Assembly (NCBI GenBank): GCA_946886075.1
Contig: CAMPHR010000005.1
Location: 1 to 64,000, forward strand
DNA from: an uncultured Novosphingobium sp.
GTDB lineage: Bacteria; Pseudomonadota; Alphaproteobacteria; Sphingomonadales; Sphingomonadaceae
Length of the DNA: 64,000 nt
Reading direction: 5' to 3'
Shown: piece by piece, positions 32,334-40,007 of the stretch
Layout: each line of letters opens with the position of its first letter
Position numbering within the stretch: position 1 is the first letter of the stretch
Notes under the pieces: generated by a model
The model's database searches: none
What the model was told of the DNA's origin: nothing
Seen by the model: only the letters and a program-made list of their open reading frames with translations
Position numbers and translations under genes: made by a program

Positions 32334-33128
32334 TCAGGCGGGGGCCGTGGCTTCGTCGAAGAACAAGGCTTGCGAAATTGCCGCCTTGACCGTCGATCGC
32401 TGAAACGGCTTGGTGATGAGGAAGGTCGGCTCCGGGCGTTCGCCGGTCAGCAGACGCTCCGGGAAGGCGGTGATGAAGATGACCGGCACGGAAAATTCCG
32501 CAAGAATGTCCTTCACGGCATCGATGCCGCTGGAATCATCGGCCAGCTGAATATCGGCAAGCACCAGACCCGGGCGCTCCGCCATTGCTTCGCGAACTGC
32601 GTCCTCGCGTGTCACCGCGATGGCCGTTACTTCGTGACCGAGGTCGCGGACGATCGTTTCGATGTCCATGGCGATGATCGGCTCATCTTCGATGATCAGC
32701 ACCTTGGCGCGGGTTTGCGCCTCAATCTCGCTGAGCGCTTCCTCAACCAGAGCCTCGACATCCGCCGGGTCGAGCCCGATCAGATAAGCGACGTCATCGA
32801 CAGTAAAGCCTTCCAGAGCCGTCAGCAGCAGCGCCTGGCGCGGCAGCGGCGTGAGGCGTGCAAGACGAGCCTGCGCGACCGCCTCCTGCCCGTCGCTTCC
32901 AGTCAGCACGGGGCCGTCCTCCAGGTGCGAAGACGACCAGATTGCATGAAATGTCTTGTAGAGCCCGAGCCGCGGGTCGACGTCGGACGGGAATTCTTCG
33001 GGCGCTGCCACGATCGCTTCCAACGTCGCACGCACATAGGCGTCGCCATGCGCCTGGCTACCCGTCAGGGCACGAGCATAGCGACGCAAGAAAGGAAGGT
33101 GGGGGTGCAGTTGCTGTCCAAGCGACAT
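32334..33128 (-). CDS. phyR: General stress response anti-anti-sigma response regulator PhyR
   Basis: Master switch of the general stress response: when phosphorylated, its sigma-like domain binds NepR and frees EcfG. The 264-aa protein starts at ATG 33128 behind GGGAGAAG. The N-terminal sigma-like domain (about 1-135) has PHLPFLRRYARALTGSQAHG and LTPLPRQALLLTALEGFTVD, with the degenerate sigma4 shape typical of PhyR. The receiver domain (about 141-260) has VLIIEDEPIIAMD, phosphoacceptor Asp192 in LVLADIQLAD, and TKPFQRSTV. It faces nepR across a 299-base gap. Confidence 0.95.
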   Translation of the reverse strand: MSLGQQLHPHLPFLRRYARALTGSQAHGDAYVRATLEAIVAAPEEFPSDVDPRLGLYKTFHAIWSSSHLEDGPVLTGSDGQEAVAQARLARLTPLPRQALLLTALEGFTVDDVAYLIGLDPADVEALVEEALSEIEAQTRAKVLIIEDEPIIAMDIETIVRDLGHEVTAIAVTREDAVREAMAERPGLVLADIQLADDSSGIDAVKDILAEFSVPVIFITAFPERLLTGERPEPTFLITKPFQRSTVKAAISQALFFDEATAPA

Positions 33129-33271
33129 CTGTAAATCTTCTCCCAGCCCATAGGGCGCATTGCTAATCAACATTCGCTGCGCGGAAGGATGGATTGCCAA
33201 TGCCGATGTGGCAAGCCCCCGCCCCCTTTTCAGCCGCCCTGCGGACGGCGGCAAAAAATGCTTCGGGGATG

Positions 33272-33297
33272 GGAACCAACGAGGAAAAGATTTGTTT
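33272..33297 (+). promoter_or_regulatory. EcfG-type promoter upstream of nepR
   Basis: GGAAC at 33272-33276 and GTTT at 33294-33297, 17 bases apart (or 16 to TGTT), match the EcfG consensus. It lies in the phyR-nepR gap, reads toward nepR, and leaves a leader of about 125 bases. It would give negative feedback by raising the anti-sigma factor. Confidence 0.7.
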
Positions 33298-33427
33298 CAC
33301 TGCCGTTCGGTTTTTTAACTGAAATCTTGATTTTGATGTAAAGCTCCGCTGGCGGTCGATTGACGCCACGCGGGAAAGCCGCAAAAGAAAAGCCGATTGA
33401 CATGGTAGCGTTGCAGAGGGGCGTATT

Positions 33428-33652
33428 TTGGTTGCTTCAACGACGGAACGGGATGTGAAGGGAGGGGACAGGAAAGATGTCGGCGCCAACACCCCGGATT
33501 CGGGCGTGACTGGCAAAGCCTCCCCCAAGCGGCGCTCGGCTCCTGCCAAGGGTGACGGCGATGTCGCCAATGTCCTGCGTTCTGTCTATCAGCGCGCCGT
33601 GGACGAAGATATTCCCGCCGAAATGCTCGACCTTCTGCGGAAGCTGGATTAG
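33428..33652 (+). CDS. nepR: Anti-sigma factor NepR
   Basis: Small anti-sigma protein of 74 aa that holds EcfG until PhyR-P displaces it. The C-terminal helical core (NVLRSVYQRAVDEDIPAEML, then DLLRKLD) is the NepR signature; the N-terminal 45 residues are polar and probably disordered, as in known members. The start is probably TTG 33428, six bases after AGAGGGG; a stop in frame closes the upstream side and no ATG is available. A weak start would keep its level low. It faces phyR and is followed by the kinase-like gene on the same strand. Confidence 0.9.
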   Translation: MVASTTERDVKGGDRKDVGANTPDSGVTGKASPKRRSAPAKGDGDVANVLRSVYQRAVDEDIPAEMLDLLRKLD

Positions 33653-33705
33653 CATCGACCTTAGGGGTCGCTTGCATATGATGTCTCCCGACGGAGGGCA
33701 GATTG

Positions 33706-33813
33706 ATGCTTTTCGATACTGGCATAGGCGCGGGGCATGTCGCTTTGGTCGTGGTCGACTTTTCAGACCTTCCAGACCCTGAACCGGTCAATGCATATCT
33801 GATCATCGCATGA
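33706..33813 (+). CDS. Candidate 35-aa peptide between nepR and kinase gene
   Basis: ATG 33706 is eight bases after a GGAGGG ribosome site and opens a 35-codon frame (MLFDTGIGAGHVALVVVDFS and DLPDPEPVNAYLIIA). The composition is hydrophobic with acidic turns; no family is recognised. It is too short to judge by length. A leader peptide for the downstream gene is possible, and so is chance. Confidence 0.35.
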   Translation: MLFDTGIGAGHVALVVVDFSDLPDPEPVNAYLIIA

Positions 33814-33815
33814 AC

Positions 33816-33831
33816 GGGACGGCACCGTCCC
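33816..33831. promoter_or_regulatory. Perfect dyad before the PhyP-like gene
   Basis: GGGACGG-CA-CCGTCCC is a perfect seven-base inverted repeat 10-26 bases before the likely start at 33842. It could be an operator, or a tight RNA hairpin that would cover the ribosome site, which otherwise looks poor. No regulator can be named. Confidence 0.45.
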
Positions 33832-33841
33832 AACCAGTTGA

Positions 33842-35398
33842 TTGCTCGTGCGCAACCTGAACAGCCTCATCCAATCAACCGGCGTCAAGATGTTCCTCAT
33901 CCTGACTCTGGCCCTTTTGCCGCTGGGCCTCATAGCTCTGGTGGCATCGCTGCAGGCCATCCGCACTTCGGACCTGGAGAAGGAAGCCCTGCTGCGCGTG
34001 TCGGTGACGCAGAGCGCGCGCAAGCTGACGGAGGACCTGGCTTCGGACCGCACCGCTTTGATGCTGACCGCGAACGCGCTGGCCACCCGCAGCGAGGGAG
34101 CGGAAATGTGCCAGCGGCTTTCCATTTTCCTGACGTCGCATGACCGGGAAGGCGGCCGATATTATATCTATGATCGCAACGGGCAGCGTATTTGCGGATC
34201 TTCTCAGCCTGAGCCGCGCGGCCTGTCAGTGGGTGCGCGTTTTCATGGCGCGAAGGCGACGCTGCTCCCCGCTTCGGGCTATCTCGCCAGCCGCGTGGTC
34301 AGCGACAACAAGCAAGTGGTGGCGCTTGCCTATTATTCGCGCGCCTATCTCGAAAAGATAGCAAGCCCGACCACGGCCCTGCAGAACCGTCAGTTGAGCC
34401 TTGAGCAGGGCGACCATATGCTTGTCGTCAGTAAGCCTGCCAATGATTTGGGGGGCAAGAGCACCAGCTTGTCGGCTCGGCTCGATCCCCCGGATATCCT
34501 TCTCACCATGACCTTGCGCGACCCGCCGGTGACTCTCGCGCGGATGCTGTCGCTCTTCCTGCCTCTTGTCATGTGGTTCGCGGCAGCGGCGATTGGCTGG
34601 TTTGTCGTCAATCGGCTGCTCATTCGGCCCCTTGTGGTACTGCGCCGGACGGTCGCCGCCTATCATCCCGGCGAAGTGCTGGAACCCATGCGCCGCATCC
34701 GCACTCCGGCGCAGGAGATAGTGGCGCTAGGCGAAACCTTCCGCGAGATCAGTGAGGATGTGGCGACCCATGAGGCCGAAATGGCAGAAGGTCTCGACAC
34801 GCAGCGTAAACTGACGCGAGAGGTCCATCATCGCGTCAAGAACAACCTTCAGATCATCGCAAGCCTCATCAGCCTGCATGCCCGTGCTGCGCATGAACCG
34901 GAAGCGGTCGAAGCCTATGCTTCCATTCAGCGCCGCGTCGATGCGTTGTCGGTCGTGCATCGTAACCATTATGCGGAACTGGAGGAACATCGCGGCGTCG
35001 GCGTTCGCTCGCTGGTAAGCGAATTGTCCGCCAGCCTGCGCGGCACGGCACCGGCCGAAGCAAGGCGCTTTGGCATCCAGATCGATAGCGACAATCTTCA
35101 CATCAGCCAGGATGTCGCGGTGCCGATCGCATTCCTGCTTACGGAGCTGGTCGAACTTGCGATGTTGTCCAATCCCCGAACGGGTATGCGCATATCCGTC
35201 CAGCTAGAGCCTGGACGCGACGACAGAGCCGTCCTTCATCTGAGCTCACCAGCACTGCGTGGATCGGAGGCGATGAGCGCGCGGATAGAGGAGCGATATG
35301 GCCGCGTGCTGATTGGCCTTTCGCGGCAGCTGCGCGCACCGCTCGACCATGACCCCGTCGCTGGCGATTATGCCATCGCCATCAACGTCATTCCCTGA
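33842..35398 (+). CDS. HisKA_2 sensor protein with degenerate ATPase domain (PhyP-like)
   Basis: Membrane protein of up to 518 aa next to nepR, where sphingomonads carry the PhyR regulator PhyP. The start is TTG 33842 or GTG 33848. Two helices (about residues 16-36 and 235-258) flank an extracytoplasmic CHASE-like sensor of about 200 residues; then a linker and the HisKA_2 dimerisation box REVHHRVKNNLQIIASLISL. The C-terminal ATPase fold is eroded: the N box reads LLTELVELAM with no Asn, and no DDGxG-type motif is found. It may therefore be a phosphatase or scaffold for PhyR and not an autokinase (inference). Confidence 0.85.
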   Translation: MLVRNLNSLIQSTGVKMFLILTLALLPLGLIALVASLQAIRTSDLEKEALLRVSVTQSARKLTEDLASDRTALMLTANALATRSEGAEMCQRLSIFLTSHDREGGRYYIYDRNGQRICGSSQPEPRGLSVGARFHGAKATLLPASGYLASRVVSDNKQVVALAYYSRAYLEKIASPTTALQNRQLSLEQGDHMLVVSKPANDLGGKSTSLSARLDPPDILLTMTLRDPPVTLARMLSLFLPLVMWFAAAAIGWFVVNRLLIRPLVVLRRTVAAYHPGEVLEPMRRIRTPAQEIVALGETFREISEDVATHEAEMAEGLDTQRKLTREVHHRVKNNLQIIASLISLHARAAHEPEAVEAYASIQRRVDALSVVHRNHYAELEEHRGVGVRSLVSELSASLRGTAPAEARRFGIQIDSDNLHISQDVAVPIAFLLTELVELAMLSNPRTGMRISVQLEPGRDDRAVLHLSSPALRGSEAMSARIEERYGRVLIGLSRQLRAPLDHDPVAGDYAIAINVIP

Positions 35399-36905: not shown

Positions 36906-37046
36906 ATTAACTTGCTGGCTTTTCGGAGGCTTACGCGCAACAGTAAGGAATAAAAAGGGTTAACACCGTGCGGTTTTTACAAGTCGCGGTTGCATCAGCC
37001 TGCGAACGCTGTTTTCTTCAGCCTGGGTCAAAATTCGGGGGCAAAG

Positions 37047-38006
37047 ATGATTGATTCCGGGCGATTTAGTCATGCGCGAGAACCGGTGAACGATCTGGCA
37101 CCGGACCATCTCGTGCCAGAGGAGGGTGTAACCTTGGCTGCCGTTACGGAAAGCCTGGCTGCTACATCCGACATTGGCAAATCCACGCTGTTCGATCTGG
37201 GTCAGATCGACGTCAGTTGGGACGCGTCGTTAGCGACGCTCTGGGCCTTCATGACGCCGACTCACCGGCCCAATTTCAGCCTCGCGCTGCTGCGCGACGT
37301 TCGGCATTGGTATGTCGAGAGCAAGCGGCTGTTCGACGGAGGCATGCTGCCGGTCCAATATATGGTCGCCGGATCGCGCTTTCCCGGCGTTTTCAATCTG
37401 GGCGGCGACCTTGAACTGTTCGCCAGTTGCATCGAGCGCGGCGATCTGCCCGGACTGGTCGATTACGGCCATGCCTGCATCGACGTGGTGAACCGCACCT
37501 GGCGCAACGGTGACCTGCCCGTCGTCTCGATCGCCCTTGCCCAGGGCGATGCGTTGGGCGGCGGGTTCGAGGCGCTTCTTTGCTTCGACATGGTTATTGC
37601 CGAGCGGAGCGCCCGCTTTGGCCTGCCCGAGATGCTGTTCGGCCTCTTCCCGGGCATGGGCGCCTATTCGATCCTCGCCCGTAAACTGGGCCGCCGGATG
37701 GCGGAACGCATGATCCTTTCTGGCAAGGTCTATACCGCCGAGGAAATGTACGACATCGGCGTAGTCACCATCCTTGTCGAGGATGGCGAGGGCGAGCAGG
37801 CCGTGCGTGACTATATCTCCAGCAATCGTCGGCATCACGCGGGGCATGTAGGCGTCTTCGAAGCGGGCCGCCGCGTCGATCCGCTCGAATATTCCGAGCT
37901 CAAAGACATCGTCGAAAACTGGGCCGCGACTGCTCTCAAACTGGACCCGACAGACCTGCGCATGATGCGCCGCCTGGCTTCTGCCCAGACGCGCCTCAGC
38001 AAATAA
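37047..38006 (+). CDS. rpfF: RpfF-like crotonase, putative diffusible signal factor synthase
   Basis: Crotonase-fold enzyme of 319 aa most like RpfF/DspI, which makes cis-2-unsaturated fatty acid signals (DSF) from acyl-ACP. The start is ATG 37047, six bases after GGGGG. The family core is present: AGSRFPGVFNLGGDLELFAS, ALAQGDALGGGFEALLCFDM, RSARFGLPEMLFGLFPGMGA, RMAERMILSGKVYTAEEM. Both catalytic glutamates of RpfF are kept, Glu175 in GGFEA and Glu195 in GLPEM, exactly 20 residues apart as in Xanthomonas. The N-terminal 60 residues are unlike RpfF. No rpfC/rpfG is visible. Convergent with a GGDEF-EAL gene, nine bases away. Confidence 0.82.
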   Translation: MIDSGRFSHAREPVNDLAPDHLVPEEGVTLAAVTESLAATSDIGKSTLFDLGQIDVSWDASLATLWAFMTPTHRPNFSLALLRDVRHWYVESKRLFDGGMLPVQYMVAGSRFPGVFNLGGDLELFASCIERGDLPGLVDYGHACIDVVNRTWRNGDLPVVSIALAQGDALGGGFEALLCFDMVIAERSARFGLPEMLFGLFPGMGAYSILARKLGRRMAERMILSGKVYTAEEMYDIGVVTILVEDGEGEQAVRDYISSNRRHHAGHVGVFEAGRRVDPLEYSELKDIVENWAATALKLDPTDLRMMRRLASAQTRLSK

Positions 38007-38015
38007 CAGGAAGCC

Positions 38016-40007
38016 TCAAGCGCGGCGTCGATTCTGCATCAGCAGGACGACGTTGCTCTTCTCGCGCTCCATCTTGCCCATCATCGCCAACAGGTCTTCG
38101 GCCGGCATCGGGCGGCTGAGCACGAAGCCCTGTACATTGGTGAAGCCCATCTCGCGCGCATAGCGCAGTTGCTCTTCCGTCTCGATGCCCTCGGCTACCG
38201 TTTCCACGTCCAGCGAATGGGCGAGGAAGGCGACCGATTGCGCGATCGCGCGGTCGCGCACCTTCTCACCGACGCCGCGCATAAAGCTCTGGTCGACCTT
38301 CAATGTGTCGAAGGAATAGTCGCGCAAATAGCTGAGCGAGGAATAGCCCGTCCCGAAATCGTCGAGCGCCAGCCGCAAGCCGATGCGCTGTAACTCCGAC
38401 AGGATCAGGCTGGTGCGGCCGCTATCCTCCAGGAAGATCGATTCCGTGACCTCCAGTTCCAGACGCCGCGCCTTCAATCCCGTGCCCATCAGGGCCGCGA
38501 TGACCGCGCGGGGCAACCCGTCGCTCTTGATCAGCGCGGGCGAGATATTGACGGCGACGCGGACATGGTCGTCCCACTGCATCGCGTCCCGGCACGCCTG
38601 TTCGAGAGCCCAGGCGGTGATCGGCTCGATCAGCGAGCTGCTTTCAGCGATCGGGATGAACTCGGCCGGGGATATCCGTCCCATCACCGGATGATCCCAG
38701 CGCATCAGCGCTTCGCAGATCGCTATCTTGCCAGTCACCGTGTCGAAGATCGGCTGATAATGCAGCAGCAATTCGCCGTTCGCCATCGCCTCGCGCAGGC
38801 CCATTTCCAGTTCATAGGTGCGGTTCTGCCGCTCTTTCATGGACCAAGTGAAATGAGCATGGCGATTCCGCCCGGCGTGCTTCGCCTGGTAAAGCGCCAT
38901 GTCGGCATGCTGGAGCAGTTCGTCGCTGTCCCTTCCATCCTCCGGAGCCACCGCGACGCCCATGGAGGCAGTCACGCCCAGGCGGTAGCCACCGACATCG
39001 AAGTCATGACCGAATTCCGCCATCACATCATCGACGATCTGCTGCGCCGCTTCCCGGTTCGCACCGGGGCAGATGAGGATGAATTCGTCGCCGCCGAAGC
39101 GCGCCACATGACCGCGCCCGTCAACGGCATCGGATAGCCGCGCGGCGACCGAGCATAGCAGCTGGTCGCCGATAATATGTCCAAGCGAATCGTTGATTTC
39201 CTTGAACCGGTCCAGGTCCATCCAGAAAACCGCCATCGGGTTGTCATCCGATTCCCGCCGGTCGAACATTTCGCGCAACCGCATCTGCATCGCCATGCGG
39301 TTTTCCACGCCGGTCAGGCTGTCGAACCGTGCCAGCCGTTCGAATTTGGTGGCCAGCTGGGACTTCTCATATTTGCCCTGCAACGCTTCCAGAACGATGC
39401 GGTGCGTGGTCTTGGTAATGTCGGCCATGGAGAAGATCATCAGGAAGCAGAGGATCCCCAGCACCGTATAGCCCAGCCCCCCGACCAGGATTAGACCAAG
39501 CGATGTCGGCAGCAGCGAGAAGCAGGTCTGCCCGACCGCGACATGGATACGCCCCGCGTTACGGCCGGAAATGCCACCGGAATAGGACGCGACCATGCCG
39601 ACAACCAGCACATGCAGGGCCGCATTGTGCGTCAGCAATAGAGCCGCGAAGGCCTGTACCCCCAGCAGCGCCGCGTAGCACCAGGCGCCAGCCTCATAGG
39701 CGAAGCCCCAGATCGGCTGGGCCGCCCCCTCTTCATGGGCAAGCTGCCGTTGGAAATAGACAGAGGAAACCGATCGGCTGAGGCCAACCAGACAAATCAG
39801 GGCGGCAATGACCGTGATGGCGGTGATCTGCGCATACCAGGCAACGACCAGCCCCACCGCTCCGCCCGCCAGCGCGCCGATCATCAACGATGCGGGCGAC
39901 GCGTAAAGCGATTTGACAAGATTATCCTGCACCTCAGCGCTTAGCTGAGTATCCTGCGCAAGGCGCGTGCGCAGTATTGCGCTCCATTTGCTCAAGAGGC
40001 GTGACAC
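38016..40007 (-). CDS. Membrane GGDEF-EAL protein (c-di-GMP synthase/phosphodiesterase)
   Basis: Protein of 663 aa likely to make or break cyclic di-GMP. The N-terminal part has about five helices grouped as a membrane sensor (residues about 40-190). The GGDEF domain (about 225-385) has an intact active site, HVARFGGDEFILI. The EAL domain (about 400-645) has ICEALMRWDHP, the catalytic DDFGTGYSSLSYLRDY loop and EGIETEEQL, all required residues seen. The start is GTG 40007; no ATG is near. Convergent with the rpfF-like gene. Which activity dominates cannot be told from sequence. Confidence 0.9.
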   Translation of the reverse strand: MSRLLSKWSAILRTRLAQDTQLSAEVQDNLVKSLYASPASLMIGALAGGAVGLVVAWYAQITAITVIAALICLVGLSRSVSSVYFQRQLAHEEGAAQPIWGFAYEAGAWCYAALLGVQAFAALLLTHNAALHVLVVGMVASYSGGISGRNAGRIHVAVGQTCFSLLPTSLGLILVGGLGYTVLGILCFLMIFSMADITKTTHRIVLEALQGKYEKSQLATKFERLARFDSLTGVENRMAMQMRLREMFDRRESDDNPMAVFWMDLDRFKEINDSLGHIIGDQLLCSVAARLSDAVDGRGHVARFGGDEFILICPGANREAAQQIVDDVMAEFGHDFDVGGYRLGVTASMGVAVAPEDGRDSDELLQHADMALYQAKHAGRNRHAHFTWSMKERQNRTYELEMGLREAMANGELLLHYQPIFDTVTGKIAICEALMRWDHPVMGRISPAEFIPIAESSSLIEPITAWALEQACRDAMQWDDHVRVAVNISPALIKSDGLPRAVIAALMGTGLKARRLELEVTESIFLEDSGRTSLILSELQRIGLRLALDDFGTGYSSLSYLRDYSFDTLKVDQSFMRGVGEKVRDRAIAQSVAFLAHSLDVETVAEGIETEEQLRYAREMGFTNVQGFVLSRPMPAEDLLAMMGKMEREKSNVVLLMQNRRRA

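Follow-up and report, generated by a model that had tools for sequence, protein, structure and literature searches.

A diffusible signal factor synthase homologue encoded convergently with a six-helix membrane GGDEF-EAL protein in sphingomonads: a candidate receptor class

The window analysed here is a stretch of 64,000 nucleotides from an uncultured Novosphingobium sp. (contig CAMPHR010000005.1, positions 1 to 64,000 of the forward strand). It encodes a homologue of RpfF, the synthase of diffusible signal factors (DSF), and, convergent to it, a membrane protein with the GGDEF and EAL domains of cyclic di-GMP (c-di-GMP) turnover. The pair is probably a DSF-type signal module in which the signal is sensed by the GGDEF-EAL protein through six transmembrane (6-TM) helices, which would make this protein a third core class of DSF receptor. 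The evidence for it includes the RpfF fold of the first product, the co-occurrence of rpfF with the membrane domain, the mutual exclusion of that domain and the RpfC-like sensor, the convergent slot that the two receptor types share, and the allele groups common to rpfF and the membrane domain. Comparative genomics suggests a receptor of a kind not yet described.

Two core routes of DSF sensing, along with some accessory sensor kinases, are set out in the accessible part of PMC4504480, and in both the receptor is encoded convergently to rpfF. Going by the accessible text of PMC4504480 and PMC3749722, Xanthomonas has rpfGHC convergent to rpfF, and in that of PMC6361424 the same slot is occupied in Burkholderia by RpfR, which the accessible part of the review PMC8846402 gives as the DSF-type example in c-di-GMP sensing. 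Neither RpfF/DSF signalling in sphingomonads nor a membrane GGDEF-EAL receptor for DSF was met in the titles and abstract openings of the top-ranked literature matches, a search that did not extend to subscription papers and preprints. The main text of a comparison of c-di-GMP genes across five alphaproteobacterial orders (PMC9756655), searched by term, contains neither RpfF nor enoyl-CoA.

The synthase homologue and its convergent partner

The features of the pair are collected in Table 1. The initial annotation had described an rpfF homologue with both catalytic glutamates 20 residues apart and a membrane GGDEF-EAL gene convergent to it nine bases away, and both descriptions are confirmed.

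Table 1. Coordinates of the rpfF-like gene, the membrane GGDEF-EAL gene and their parts in the window
Feature	Position	Strand	Description
rpfF-like gene	37047..38006	+	319 amino acids; PRK08788/RpfF clade of the crotonase superfamily
rpfF 5' half, allele tract in conflict with the flanks	37047..37600 (end approximate)	+	Quartet counts 11/41/9 (codons 1-160) vs backbone 134/34/53
Glu175 codon, first catalytic glutamate	37569..37571	+	Invariant in 17/17 sequences; alignment to PDB 3m6m
Glu195 codon, second catalytic glutamate	37629..37631	+	Invariant in 17/17 sequences; alignment to PDB 3m6m
Intergenic gap between the two convergent stop codons	38007..38015	.	Nine bases
Membrane GGDEF-EAL gene, proposed receptor	38016..40007	-	GTG start, 663 amino acids; Pfam GGDEF and EAL well over cut-off
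EAL domain	38109..38798	-	Motifs EAL, NIS, EVTES, DDFG, KVD, AEG and QG present
GGDEF domain	38862..39329	-	GGDEF motif intact; I-site motif (taken to be RxxD) absent, DGRG in its place
GGDEF/MEM allele tract, same conflict	38950..39850 (ends approximate)	-	Quartet counts: MEM 14/43/8, GGDEF 7/20/13
Six predicted transmembrane helices of MEM, residues 38-209	39381..39896	-	AlphaFold2 model

An alternative TTG start of the rpfF-like gene lies at 36990, 57 bases upstream of 37047. The two glutamates stand in the contexts GGGFEALL and GLPEMLFGLFPGMGAY, which are aligned with GGGFEAALS and GLPEVLFDLFPGMGAY of Xanthomonas RpfF (PDB 3m6m); invariance was counted in an alignment of 17 sequences (A2), in which Trp292 is invariant as well. 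Allowing for a tag offset that is presumed to be 16 residues, chain residues 157 and 177 of 3m6m are taken to be Glu141 and Glu161 of RpfF, and Trp292 is taken as the counterpart of its Trp258. Glu141 and Glu161 are the catalytic glutamates of RpfF as given in the accessible part of PMC9864630.

The product is matched by Pfam ECH_1 and ECH_2 and passes the NCBIfam model NF006452 with 364.8 bits (cut-off 177). Sequence comparison with solved structures gives 5fus, 6dgn, 7zq7 and 3m6m as its best relatives. The AlphaFold2 model (mean predicted local distance difference test score, pLDDT, 81) superimposes on the RpfF entries 5fus, 6dgn, 3m6n/3m6m and 7zq7 with target-normalised template modelling (TM) scores of 0.90-0.94 and root mean square deviations of 1.5-2.1 A, and a gap follows: among the 50 matches listed, crotonases other than RpfF reach at most 0.84. 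In a quick tree of 86 rows, the 83 RpfF-like rows are set apart from the three outgroup crotonases (98*). The model and the tree, on which the initial annotation had let the matter depend, thus place the product with RpfF and support its assignment as an RpfF-type enzyme, not an ordinary enoyl-CoA hydratase.

The predicted six-helix N-terminal membrane domain of the GGDEF-EAL protein is referred to as MEM. The six membrane helices are predicted by the AlphaFold2 model of residues 1-225 (mean pLDDT 80). No Pfam family is matched by the MEM region, and a Foldseek search of MEM against the PDB gave no match at E<=0.001. A relocated RpfC sensor region was considered as the origin of MEM and is unsupported, the hhalign probability against the sensor regions of RpfC-like kinases being 0.1 percent. 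Among 55 aligned MEM proteins the GGDEF motif is identical in all, as are the E and L of the EAL motif, the A being kept in 52. Sphingobium sp. 15-1 has nine matches to the membrane GGDEF-EAL protein P0002 (E<=1e-40), of which only the rpfF-adjacent one covers the membrane part. In public records several MEM-GGDEF-EAL proteins (P0127, P0128, P0130, P0144) are called 'histidine kinase', the domains listed for them being GGDEF and EAL only.

Distribution and allele groups of rpfF and MEM

The convergent arrangement recurs. A scan of genome contigs with the RpfF protein gave 26 loci, in 19 of which (L001-L019) a membrane GGDEF-EAL gene lies convergent and downstream; the other seven belong to Croceibacterium, Erythrobacter, Altererythrobacter and two further Sphingomonadaceae, and two of them are on contigs shorter than 5 kb. 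L001 is from Sphingobium chlorophenolicum NBRC 16172 and L003 from S. fuliginis DSM 18781. In a family sample of 199 Sphingomonadaceae genomes around Sphingobium sp. 15-1, searched for RpfF at E<=1e-30, the same layout is found in 18 of the 74 RpfF-bearing genomes. The gene pair is thus conserved in part of the family, a point that the initial annotation had left to be checked, and chance neighbourhood is ruled out by the recurrence. In L018 (Parasphingopyxis) the pair is present without tgt and phyR, the neighbours that flank L001-L017; therefore it is not merely an inherited gene order. L018, L104, L105 and L106 have another GGDEF-EAL gene in tandem, after that for the MEM protein; the one in L018 has a PAS domain by Pfam and, by eye, a hydrophobic N-terminus.

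The rpfF loci were divided into class A, with the MEM protein adjacent and convergent, class B, with an RpfC-like kinase, and class C, comprising the remainder. Each of the 74 genomes has one RpfF-like match. MEM, searched with a MEM-only query of 215 amino acids, was found in 87 of the 199 genomes at E<=1e-3. At E<=1e-15 both are present in 67 genomes, rpfF only in 7, MEM only in 8 and neither in 117; at E<=1e-3 the numbers are 67, 7, 20 and 105. Of the 67 genomes with both, 18 are class A and 49 have MEM away from rpfF in the DNA inspected, which extended up to 8 kb on either side and less where contigs were short.

Class B accounts for six of the seven rpfF-only genomes. Their convergent slot is filled by membrane hybrid kinases of a single cluster, followed by a GGDEF-EAL gene, and the two kinases scanned by Pfam (L097 and L077) have HisKA, HATPase, REC and Hpt domains, as in RpfC. 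G138, the remaining one, carries neither MEM nor the RpfC-like sensor, and its rpfF lies on a contig of 4.5 kb. The sensor region of the L097 kinase is confined to seven of the 199 genomes, namely the six of class B and one without rpfF, and is absent from all 67 MEM-type genomes, so MEM and the RpfC-like sensor never occur together in the sample. The initial annotation had seen no RpfC/RpfG homologue in the window. As to RpfC, this holds for the MEM-type genomes as a group; it does not hold for the family, as 6 of the 74 RpfF genomes are RpfC-type, nor for RpfG-type output, since HD-GYP proteins are patchy among the genomes tested (7 of 20 MEM-type, 2 of 6 RpfC-type).

In a sample of 385 genomes from the whole class, RpfF was found at E<=1e-25 in 24. 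Two of these (G001 and G044) are already part of the family sample and the other 22 are additional. At 17 of the 23 loci inspected an RpfC-like kinase is convergent to rpfF (L151, cut by the contig end, included), thus the usual partner in the slot is RpfC-like, as in Xanthomonas; at two of the remaining six (L167, L169) the sequence stops shortly after rpfF. MEM is at none of the 23 loci and in four of the 385 genomes: G001, G044, and G475 and G558, which are without an RpfF match. The quick tree mentioned above contained 37 class A, 6 class B and 23 class-sample rows, 14 of the 55 class C rows, three RpfF references and the three crotonases. A 99* branch separates 32 rows (class B, class sample, and the Xanthomonas and Burkholderia references) from all class A and the 14 class C rows. 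The outgroup is distant, and the root within the RpfF rows is not trusted.

Allele groups were compared at 17 Sphingobium-type loci, the window and L001-L016. The window and L005 are near-identical in the flanks (amino acid identities of 99% in phyR, 95% in the histidine kinase gene (HK), 96% in tgt and 97% in groEL) and differ in rpfF (78%) and MEM (70%), with identities of 86% in GGDEF and 92% in EAL. A partial Mantel test of rpfF against MEM, given EAL, GGDEF, tgt, HK and phyR, gave 0.58 (p 0.0002, 5000 permutations). The corresponding value for rpfF against EAL, given MEM, tgt and HK, was -0.16 (p 0.88), even though EAL lies physically between rpfF and MEM.

L004, L005, L008 and L014 form a branch in both the rpfF tree (100/99) and the MEM tree (99/99), and both genes reject the grouping of the window with L005 by the approximately unbiased (AU) test (p-AU 0.008 for rpfF and 0.0006 for MEM); the AU tests were defined, and the allele groups named, after the identities were known. 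In the HK and tgt trees the window groups with L005 (100/100 and 99/94), and the four-locus group is rejected (8e-9 and 6e-7). The EAL tree supports the window with L005 weakly (83/76) and marginally rejects the four-locus group (0.04), and the GGDEF tree decides nothing between the two groupings.

Site patterns were counted in the quartet of the window, L005, L008 and L002. Codons 1-160 of rpfF, MEM and GGDEF are all opposed to the backbone of phyR, HK and tgt (counts in Table 1). They make up two tracts, one in the N-terminal half of rpfF and one in GGDEF-MEM, that depart from the backbone in the same way. In the middle between them, rpfF codons 161-319 and EAL gave 38/29/21, which differs from the backbone as well as from the tracts. 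It is therefore possible that one block was exchanged and its middle partly converted. When L003 replaced L002, GGDEF was undecided (13/16/18); when L004 replaced L008, the difference between the middle and rpfF codons 1-160 had a p of 0.09, and codons 1-45 were without signal (4/1/3). The shared rpfF-MEM allele pattern reflects one or a few events.

Proposed mechanism and rival readings

In the mechanism proposed, RpfF would dehydrate and release a 3-hydroxyacyl-ACP chain to yield a cis-2-unsaturated fatty acid. The fatty acid would enter the membrane and bind MEM, and binding would alter the c-di-GMP turnover of the GGDEF-EAL part, which would more likely work as a phosphodiesterase. Within a single membrane protein, MEM would fill the role that a soluble PAS domain has in RpfR and a phosphorelay in RpfC/RpfG.

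The initial annotation had suggested a possibly differently wired system. With respect to RpfC/RpfG this is supported; the nearest known wiring, which it did not name, is the convergent GGDEF-EAL arrangement of RpfF/RpfR. The window resembles the RpfF/RpfR system of Burkholderia diffusible signal factor (BDSF) in Burkholderia and Cronobacter in having an RpfF-type synthase, a convergent gene for the receptor (here putative) and GGDEF and EAL domains in its product, as far as that system is covered by the accessible text of PMC6361424 and PMC4504480. RpfR, however, is soluble and has FI and PAS input, whereas the input of the window protein is a predicted six-helix membrane region without a Pfam family; no PAS domain was found in the window protein by Pfam, and its N-terminus consists of the six helices in the model. 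In the quick tree Burkholderia RpfF, which is a long branch there, groups with the RpfC-type rows and not with the window RpfF.

With the RpfF/RpfC/RpfG system of Xanthomonas, as described in the accessible parts of PMC4504480 and PMC3749722, the window shares an RpfF-type synthase, a convergent gene for a membrane-bound receptor (here putative) and a c-di-GMP output, predicted here from the domains. RpfC belongs to the hybrid histidine kinases, has REC and Hpt domains and passes phosphate to RpfG, an HD-GYP protein, whereas the window protein appears to combine sensor and c-di-GMP enzyme in one chain without kinase domains (GGDEF and EAL only, by Pfam). The 6-TM membrane domains of nucleotide cyclases (AC9, Rv1625c) and ImcA are further systems for comparison with MEM.

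Several results weigh against the proposed signal module. Eight genomes have MEM at E<=1e-15 without an rpfF match. Co-occurrence was corrected for descent on a one-gene Tgt tree of 71 rows, the window and 70 of the 199 genomes (30 taken as the nearest to the window, and 40 chosen by hand so that the four rpfF/MEM states were covered), in which 33 of 68 inner branches are starred. Of eight independent pairs differing in rpfF on supported branches, MEM follows in about 3.3, opposes in 0.0 and is unchanged in 4.7 (averages), and the sign test is not significant (median p 0.25, or 0.125 without the RpfC-type rows); therefore shared ancestry may explain much of the strong raw association. Coevolution away from the locus was examined in 16 of the 49 unlinked class C pairs, those with the better MEM scores. 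Of the twenty unlinked stretches taken, four belonged to MEM-only genomes; among these L178 was left out, as no open frame carrying both motifs was found in it. In the 16 pairs rpfF and MEM have a partial rank correlation of 0.14 (raw 0.39), and the strongest partner of rpfF is GGDEF (0.52). Within the allele comparison, the best trees of rpfF and MEM both lack a grouping of the window with L001-L003, although neither gene rejects it (p-AU 0.07 and 0.35). The product fails the NCBIfam RpfF equivalog NF053515 (180.4 against 550 bits), as does the RpfC-type sphingomonad RpfF of L097 (217.5 bits). Finally, neither Pfam nor the model shows the MEM protein to have an FI, PAS or REC partner that could mediate feedback on RpfF.

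The rival that survives best, itself unlikely, holds that RpfF makes a DSF-type signal for a receptor elsewhere, and that the GGDEF-EAL protein senses something else and is a neighbour through shared control of biofilm or stress. It would account for the missing coevolution signal in the 16 unlinked pairs, for the eight MEM-only genomes, and for the 49 of 74 RpfF genomes in which MEM is present and not beside rpfF in the DNA inspected. It is opposed by the finding that in RpfF genomes MEM and the RpfC-like sensor exclude each other, by the convergent slot common to the MEM protein and the RpfC-like kinase, and by allele groups that rpfF and MEM share and the flanks do not.

By analogy with the known systems, RpfF might contact the GGDEF-EAL protein directly, or be held by it at the membrane, the fatty acid being secondary. 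Both core receptors bind RpfF, through the FI domain of RpfR or the REC domain of RpfC (accessible part of PMC6361424; titles of PDB entries 6dgn and 3m6m), and in rpfF the exchanged tract covers the N-terminal half and not the region of the catalytic glutamates. Such contact is nevertheless improbable: neither Pfam nor the model reveals an FI- or REC-like domain on the MEM protein, and MEM is mostly predicted to lie within the membrane, so the contact area would be small. Least probable of all is a metabolic dehydratase or thioesterase without a signal role, the pair being kept by inherited gene order; a score below the NCBIfam RpfF cut-off would fit it, as would the many class C genes that follow an exosortase-like cluster (by eye) at loci where the DNA inspected contains no GGDEF-EAL gene, but the structural match is of RpfF grade, the pair survives in L018 without tgt and phyR, and in six RpfF genomes the slot is taken by an RpfC-like kinase and MEM is absent.

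If sensing by MEM is correct, it would add a third core way of DSF sensing, with detection of the fatty acid and control of c-di-GMP united in a single membrane protein, and would extend the DSF signal family to the sphingomonads, a large group whose members live in soil and water and degrade pollutants. Such a protein would also provide a simple model for the reading of a lipid signal by a membrane domain. A fuller version, in which this receptor class is combined with a joint exchange of synthase and sensor in Sphingobium as matched signal types ('pherotypes'), is put forward tentatively and is rather doubtful as a whole. The N-terminal half of RpfF and MEM would then be two allele tracts switching together, with the part between them less affected, and the shared allele groups, if real, would represent matched diversification of synthase and receptor for a fatty-acid signal.

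Further layouts and neighbouring genes

Loci L096-L100 and L077 present a second DSF layout, with an RpfC-like hybrid kinase followed by a GGDEF-EAL gene. The product of the latter in L096, the one scanned, is REC-PAS-GGDEF-EAL, i.e. an EAL response regulator in place of the HD-GYP protein RpfG. Genome G045 has the RpfC-like sensor region with no RpfF or MEM match and is possibly a listener without a synthase. A further kinase match lies behind the RpfC-like gene in L152, L154, L155, L157-L166 and L168; in L154 it is REC-PAS-PAS-HisKA-HATPase by Pfam, possibly a phosphorelay partner.

At many class C loci among L058-L095 and L111-L125, rpfF follows a cluster of asparagine-synthase- and exosortase-like genes (identified by eye) and precedes a gene for an AFG1-like ATPase (Pfam, on that of L092) or a pirin-like gene (by eye). 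These loci have no GGDEF-EAL gene in the DNA inspected, and MEM is elsewhere in the genome.

Upstream of rpfF in the window, beyond tgt, positions 32334-35398 encode a PhyR response regulator and a HisKA_2/HWE kinase of the general stress response type. The order of phyR and HK upstream of tgt-rpfF is kept in L001-L017.

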